Shown: positions 28,838-29,775 of the stretch, piece after piece
Layout of the letters: the number at the start of each line of letters is the position of its first letter
How positions within the stretch are numbered: the stretch's first letter is position 1
Assembly (NCBI GenBank): GCA_900314495.1
Contig: OMVJ01000013.1
Span: 1 to 64,000 of the forward strand
Reading direction: 5' to 3'
DNA length: 64,000 nt
From: an uncultured Olsenella sp.
GTDB lineage: Bacteria > Actinomycetota > Coriobacteriia > Coriobacteriales > Atopobiaceae
Notes under the pieces: generated by a model
The model's database searches: none
What the model saw: only the letters and a program-made list of their open reading frames with translations
What the model was told of the DNA's origin: nothing
Position numbers and translations under genes: made by a program

Positions 28838-29470
28838 ATGAAAAGCAAAACGCACGCAAGCAGACACATCACTGCGGCAAGCCTCATATCCGCGCTCGCC
28901 CTGGCACTGTGCGTCACGTTCCTTCCCGCGTGTGGTGGGAGCACACCCGCAACGGGCAGCACCCAGCAGGGTTTGGCGCTGGAGAACGTGCAGGCGGACC
29001 AGTCGAACGCGGCCTCTGACGCCGAGGCGGATAACAGCAGCGCCTCGGACACCGCCGCCGACCTGCAGACGGACTCCGTTGCCACCGACCCGGCGGAGCG
29101 GAAGGCCCTTGCAGAGGCGGAGGCCACCGTCACCGAGGATGGCACCTACACCAGCAAGGAGGAGGTGGCCGCCTACATACACCTCTACGGAAGGCTCCCG
29201 CCCAACTTCATCAGCAAGACAAAGGCGCGCAACGCCGGGTGGGAAAGCTCCGAGGGCAACCTAGACGAGGTGCTGCCCGGCTACAGCATCGGCGGCAGCA
29301 AGTACTGGAACGACGACGGCGCGCTGCCAGAGGAATCCGGCCGCAGCTGGACGGAGTGCGACATCAACTACCAGGGCGGATACCGTGGCAGCGAGCGAAT
29401 CATCTTCTCAAACGACGGGCTCGTCTACTACACGTCGGACCACTACGAGACGTTCGAGCAGCTCTATTAG
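28838..29470 (+). CDS. Lipoprotein with C-terminal barnase-type ribonuclease
   Basis: This 210-residue protein has a signal peptide and a lipobox ending in Cys32 (FLPAC). A long Ser/Ala/Asp-rich linker (about 33-100) follows, then a barnase-fold domain (about 103-210). The catalytic residues of Bacillus barnase are all present by position: Lys127 (ISK), Glu173 (TECDINY), Arg183 and Arg187 (GGYRGSERI), and His202 (DHYETF). Barnase is normally freely secreted, so the lipoprotein anchor is unusual. GGAAGGG precedes the ATG at 28838. The barstar-like gene follows 26 bases later, which fits a nuclease-immunity pair. Targets (nutrient RNA or competitors) are not known. Confidence 0.9.
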   Translation: MKSKTHASRHITAASLISALALALCVTFLPACGGSTPATGSTQQGLALENVQADQSNAASDAEADNSSASDTAADLQTDSVATDPAERKALAEAEATVTEDGTYTSKEEVAAYIHLYGRLPPNFISKTKARNAGWESSEGNLDEVLPGYSIGGSKYWNDDGALPEESGRSWTECDINYQGGYRGSERIIFSNDGLVYYTSDHYETFEQLY

Positions 29471-29496
29471 GCCGCTGCCAGCTACCGGAGGCAACC

Positions 29497-29775
29497 ATGA
29501 GGGAACTAGTCGTGCGCGAGTCGGACTTTGCGGGAGCGAATGAGCTACACGCCTTCCTGCAGCAGGAGCTGGGTTTCCCCAGCCACTACGGCAGGAACCT
29601 CTCTGCCCTCAACGACTGCCTGGGCGACATCTGCACGCCCACCCGCATCGTGGTGGTGGGCCCGCCCAACCGTGCCGGAGACTGGCAGGAAGGGTTCCGC
29701 CGGGTCTTCGCGCGCCAGGCGCTGGAGAACCCCTACTTGGACGTAACCCTCTCGGAAGGTCACTTCTCCAGGTAG
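29497..29775 (+). CDS. Barstar-family ribonuclease inhibitor
   Basis: This 92-residue protein matches barstar in length and in the helix FPSHYGRNLSALNDCLGD. Barstar uses Asp35 and Asp39 of this helix to plug the barnase active site. Asp39 is kept (NDCL), but the Asp35 position is Ser (LSAL), and Trp38 is Asn. It probably protects the cell from the nuclease encoded just upstream before export. CGGAGG lies six bases before the ATG. Its last 16 bases overlap the 3' end of the opposite-strand HD gene. Confidence 0.88.
   Translation: MRELVVRESDFAGANELHAFLQQELGFPSHYGRNLSALNDCLGDICTPTRIVVVGPPNRAGDWQEGFRRVFARQALENPYLDVTLSEGHFSR

Follow-up and report, generated by a model that had tools for sequence, protein, structure and literature searches.

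A probably lipid-tethered barnase-family ribonuclease beside its barstar in an uncultured Olsenella sp., with a charge-reversed contact shared across a coriobacterial clade

In the textbook complex of Bacillus amyloliquefaciens barnase with its inhibitor barstar, barnase residues Lys27, Arg59, Arg83 and Arg87 meet barstar residues Asp35, Asp39 and Glu76 (PMC8837141; PMC2231411); Arg59 forms salt bridges with Glu76 and Asp35, and Asp39 contacts Arg83, Arg87 and His102. The interface residues are conserved among Bacillus guanyl RNases (PMC8837141). In the laboratory, barnase R59E harms binding, and a genetic selection showed barstar E76R to rescue it (Jucovic and Hartley 1996, as summarized in PMC10932960); according to the latter source, this R59E/E76R swap compensates only partially. 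Simple pairs of an RNase gene followed by a barstar gene are widely distributed, methanoarchaea included, in the account of Zhang et al. (2012; PMC3482391), the relevant passages of which treat such pairs as an early form of the toxin-immunity order and mention neither the type of anchor nor a reversed interface.

The window analyzed here, a stretch of 64,000 nucleotides from an uncultured Olsenella sp. (contig OMVJ01000013.1), carries a gene pair of the same two families as in B. amyloliquefaciens, in the order RNase then barstar that the simple pairs of Zhang et al. have, and retains the catalytic residues Lys27, Glu73, Arg83, Arg87 and His102 together with barstar Asp39. The RNase domain is 51% identical to B. 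amyloliquefaciens barnase over 101 residues, and the barstar 28% identical to its counterpart. Unlike the B. amyloliquefaciens genes, the inhibitor gene in the window lies directly downstream, and the RNase appears to be tethered (probably by lipid, with a long linker), whereas B. amyloliquefaciens barnase is free and Bacillus binase, balnase and balifase, of the same catalytic domain family, are secreted and untethered (PMC8837141). The interface differs as well: barnase Arg59 and Glu60 are both replaced by Asp, and barstar Y29, D35, W38 and E76 by H30, S36, N39 and R73, with D39 retained as D40. The exchange at positions 59 and 76 is identical in charge and in location to that of the laboratory pair, from which the window pair differs in being natural, in having Asp rather than Glu at 59 (Glu occurs in a related group) and in that Asp35 is mostly lost too. 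The gene pair is of a known kind; searches of the openly licensed literature found no account of a reversed interface in natural pairs.

Gene pair and encoded proteins

The RNase consists of a signal peptide (residues 1-31), a lipobox cysteine (Cys32), a linker (~33-103) and an RNase domain (~104-210). Its N-terminus runs from positive charge through a hydrophobic stretch to FLPAC, ending on Cys32, and the linker of ~70 residues that follows is of low complexity and abundant in Ala, Ser, Thr, Asp and Glu, with AlphaFold pLDDT mostly 30-40 over residues 31-80. The domain itself is modelled at pLDDT 95-98 over most of its length; it matches the PF00545 (Ribonuclease) profile with 60.3 bits against a cutoff of 24 (residues 109-209), and phmmer aligns residues 108-208 with barnase 8-108 (E 3.9e-32) at an offset of 100 residues. 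By this alignment Lys127, Glu173, Arg183, Arg187 and His202 correspond to barnase Lys27, Glu73, Arg83, Arg87 and His102, which are almost invariant in 137 homologues. The initial annotation had listed the signal peptide, the Cys32 lipobox, a linker of about 70 residues and these same five residues as intact; all of them are present, at the right coordinates, the lipobox in an atypical form with Pro at -2.

Compared with barnase Ser57-Asn58-Arg59-Glu60, the guanine-binding loop retains Asn158 and is changed at Trp157, Asp159 and Asp160. Residue 60, which recognises guanine in barnase, corresponds to Asp160 (codon 29315-29317) and is Asp in 31/48 RNases with an acidic residue 59 and in 3/84 of the others; the base preference of the acidic-59 RNases may be shifted.

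The barstar gene starts ~26-27 nt past the RNase stop and has a good Shine-Dalgarno-like GGAGG. Its product scores 39.3 bits against a cutoff of 23.4 with the PF01337 (Barstar) profile, is modelled at pLDDT 91, and is matched over its full length by barstars of the PDB (Z ~12 over 77-87 residues); the adjacent gene, earlier described as barstar-like, is thus above the family cutoff and is predicted to have the barstar fold from end to end. Arg73 falls within the last helix of the model (residues 62-77). No NCBIfam family scored above its cutoff for either protein, and scans for sigma-70 promoters and terminators gave nothing beyond chance. The juxtaposition of an RNase bearing a lipobox N-terminus with a barstar is confirmed as real and not a product of chance.

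Table 1. Coordinates of the RNase and barstar genes and of selected residues in the window
Feature	Position	Strand	Basis
Barnase-family RNase ORF, 210 aa	28838..29470	+	ORF and translation
Signal peptide with lipobox-like LPAC, Cys32	28838..28933	+	Sequence; window lipobox scan
Asp159 codon (barnase Arg59), acidic half of swapped salt bridge	29312..29314	+	Alignment; covariation with barstar 76
Barstar, 92 aa, cytosolic (no signal peptide)	29497..29775	+	PF01337; AlphaFold model
Ser36 codon (barstar Asp35)	29602..29604	+	Alignment
Asp40 codon (barstar Asp39)	29614..29616	+	Alignment
Arg73 codon (barstar Glu76), basic half of swapped salt bridge	29713..29715	+	Alignment

Distribution and biological use

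The host is a gut or rumen actinobacterium with a single PF00545 gene in its genome. PF00545 is present in 68/140 Atopobiaceae genomes and PF01337 in exactly those same 68 (Fisher p 1e-41, uncorrected for kinship), and in almost every Atopobiaceae pair the RNase gene comes first with the barstar gene adjacent to it; the exceptions are G082, with the genes 1.5 kb apart, G122, with a stop in the reading frame, and G075, with an extra unpaired RNase. At the G122 locus (L148) the RNase match contains an internal TGA and the barstar is still recognisable; this is probably a pseudogene. Almost all genomes have one copy, and within the largest genera with hits (g30, g34, g35) presence is approximately all-or-none. 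The initial annotation had pointed to Coriobacteriia as the place to look for the same fusion, and there it is common in Atopobiaceae; the same arrangement occurs beyond that family in Lachnospiraceae, Bacilli and rumen Methanobrevibacter.

In rumen Methanobrevibacter (L104-L109) a lipobox-like barnase is followed by a barstar, as at L108:2878-3336 and L108:3341-3673, and the pair adjoins a gene for a putative Methanobrevibacter adhesin-like protein, so it appears to lie in real archaeal DNA; simple barnase-barstar pairs of methanoarchaea are already mentioned in the passages on them in PMC3482391. One locus (L115) has a tandem duplicate of the RNase-barstar pair, both copies of which group at zero branch length. 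In seven others (L071, L072, L091, L092, L096, L031, L131) the barstar shares its reading frame with an additional, larger domain that looks like an enzyme, by eye for instance a HAD (L071), QueA (L096) or alpha/beta hydrolase (L031) relative.

No conserved operon partner was found among the pairs of the relatives: of the seven window neighbours only two recur, a gene for a GAF protein in the vicinity of two other pairs and one for an ABC ATPase in that of a single pair. A pair lacking conserved neighbours is the pattern of a mobile cassette, and it counts against the reading favoured below. As for carriage on mobile elements, neither viral contigs nor a set of 50,697 phage records contained a match, and among plasmids there were just four records, three or more of which are of megabase size. 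PADLOC matched no known defence system.

Evidence from copy number, distribution and domain content leans, not strongly, to nutrition over antagonism as the use of the enzyme, because the gene is single-copy, stable in large genera and lacks any part for delivery. The 5_nucleotid_C domain of common surface 5'-nucleotidases, which would be expected for full RNA scavenging, is missing from the genome. Were the pair instead a contact-dependent antibacterial toxin with its immunity protein, the RNase would be handed to neighbours and the barstar would guard kin, and the charge swap would represent a change of specificity. This fits the toxin-then-immunity gene order, which the window pair has in common with polymorphic toxin systems, as well as the exact coincidence of RNase and barstar in presence and absence and the occurrence of the pair in unlike genomic contexts and in archaea; the passages on simple barnase-barstar pairs in Zhang et al. 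(2012; PMC3482391) put them at the root of the polymorphic toxin order. Antagonism is nevertheless unlikely, albeit not negligibly so, in that the RNase domain and its linker, predicted to be disordered, are accompanied by no translocation, delivery or trafficking domain of the kind found in polymorphic toxins, almost every genome has one copy, presence is near-uniform within each of g30, g34 and g35, and several genera show little or no variation in their interface states; the same passages describe the simple pairs as having no notable polymorphism (PMC3482391). The more specific proposal that the swapped pair is orthogonal to canonical barnase-barstar, that the RNase is aimed at neighbours and that immunity passed to a different set of cells when the interface switched is more doubtful still.

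Probable membrane tether

The RNase N-termini of the 132 distinct neighbouring pairs comprise 81 with a lipobox cysteine, 49 with a hydrophobic segment but no lipobox, and 2 that are truncated. The 49 are mostly long and transmembrane-like, and some of them are possibly cleaved by signal peptidase I. On the tree the type of anchor changes 17 times or more while a tether is kept, and linker length ranges across pairs from 13 to 155 residues. The simplest interpretation is that the tether itself is important, whichever form it takes.

The window lipobox has Pro at -2, a form (LP[AG]C or VPGC) common to 12 relatives; strict published lipobox patterns are not known to permit Pro at this position. 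The genome encodes both Lgt (E 2.7e-73) and LspA (E 1.9e-35). Lipid attachment at Cys32 is likely but not certain, and the earlier proposal of a tethered extracellular barnase-family RNase beside a barstar gains plausibility from the two processing enzymes and from the conservation of a tether in relatives. An RNase cut near residue 33 by signal peptidase I, its lipobox unused, would instead be secreted free. The proline outside the strict patterns and the 49 relatives with no lipobox at all are compatible with this, but it is improbable given that 12 relatives retain LP[AG]C or VPGC, that most of the others have regular lipoboxes and the remainder long transmembrane-like segments, and that Lgt and LspA are encoded in the genome.

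In actinobacteria outside the Coriobacteriia (L164-L185), barnase-like or RNase Sa-like genes adjacent to a barstar mostly encode transmembrane or lipobox N-termini, and the six Streptomyces-type RNases, whose signal peptides are of the ordinary kind, lack a barstar next to them. A tether and a neighbouring inhibitor gene may be features that occur together.

Residues 59 and 76 of the interface

In the window pair, Arg59 is replaced by Asp159, Glu76 by Arg73 and Asp35 by Ser36, and the Asp39 side of the contact is retained on both proteins. The acidic barstar residue that would face Arg59, a feature of the B. amyloliquefaciens pair and not of barstars in general, is thus absent; Arg73 stands in its place, matched by Asp159. 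Neither the replacement of Arg59 nor the altered barstar interface figures in the initial annotation. The same correspondence runs through the 132 pairs: an acidic residue 59 is accompanied by Arg76 in 48/48, and Arg76 occurs in no other pair. Arg, Tyr or Lys at 59 is found with Asp or Glu at 76 in 67 pairs (66 without the reference pair), and otherwise with a neutral residue or a gap there. Barstar position 39, whose Asp fills the phosphate site of the RNase, is Asp in 123/124 pairs. Asp35 is mostly replaced (by Ala, Ser, Pro, Arg or Asn) where residue 59 is acidic, and in just three pairs otherwise.

After removal of gappy columns (e.g. barstar column 46), 59-76 has the highest mutual information of all 8,181 column pairs between the two proteins, whether APC is applied or not (z 12.1). 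Of 4,032 pairs scored for co-change on the tree it is again the top one, six branches being shared from 12 changes per site (p 1.7e-6). Acidic 59 accounts for four changes on the tree and Arg76 likewise for four, and a slower tree search agrees; an independent-pairs sign test has no power, since the acidic state switches independently no more than four times. It originated in a coriobacterial clade (support 98%), 48 of whose 53 members are acidic. Later departures led to Tyr-Asp (L040), Ile-Ile (L084, L142, L146) and Asn-Gln (L116), both proteins having changed each time. That the acidic state arose mainly once, with all 48 acidic members in one supported clade of 53, would allow the covariation to reflect common ancestry of that clade and not contact. 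Such an explanation is very improbable, as all three kinds of departure within the clade alter both sites to chemically matching pairs, 59-76 remains first in the branch-by-branch test, from which clade size is removed, and the two residues form a known structural contact with known compensation in the laboratory.

By these comparisons nature has evolved, across a whole clade, the same charge swap as was obtained by laboratory selection. Loss of Asp35 in the natural clade suggests a further adjustment of the swapped contact. Persistence of the contact through a change of chemistry is strong evidence that the window barstar would bind the window RNase at its active site, and the pairing of RNase and inhibitor is, by way of its co-evolved interface residues, much better supported than the initial annotation could have known.

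Probably, then, the pair comprises a surface-anchored RNase with a dedicated, co-evolved cytosolic barstar, and would serve to degrade environmental RNA, be it to feed the cell or to clear the RNA away, and not as a weapon against neighbours. The first gene would encode a guanyl-type RNase that is exported and lipid-anchored on Cys32, and the flexible linker of ~70 residues would hold it so that RNA is cut on the cell surface or immediately beyond it. Cytosolic barstar would plug the active site of RNase molecules that fold before export, thereby protecting the maker; it would do so through the retained core contact of Asp39 with Arg83, Arg87 and His102, and through a reversed Asp59-Arg76 contact in place of the peripheral contact of Arg59 with Glu76 and Asp35, Asp35 being removed. 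Processing of RNA inside the cell envelope, which is compatible with the envelope location only and for which there is no partner gene, conserved context or known substrate, can scarcely be credited.

Barnase and barstar serve as the standard model for how proteins recognise one another, and a natural clade with swapped charges and a linked change at Asp35 provides pairs that would allow direct measurement of specificity, the order of compensation and orthogonality. That lipid and transmembrane-like anchors have replaced each other repeatedly suggests that many barnases act while tethered to the cell, unlike the free enzyme of the textbooks.
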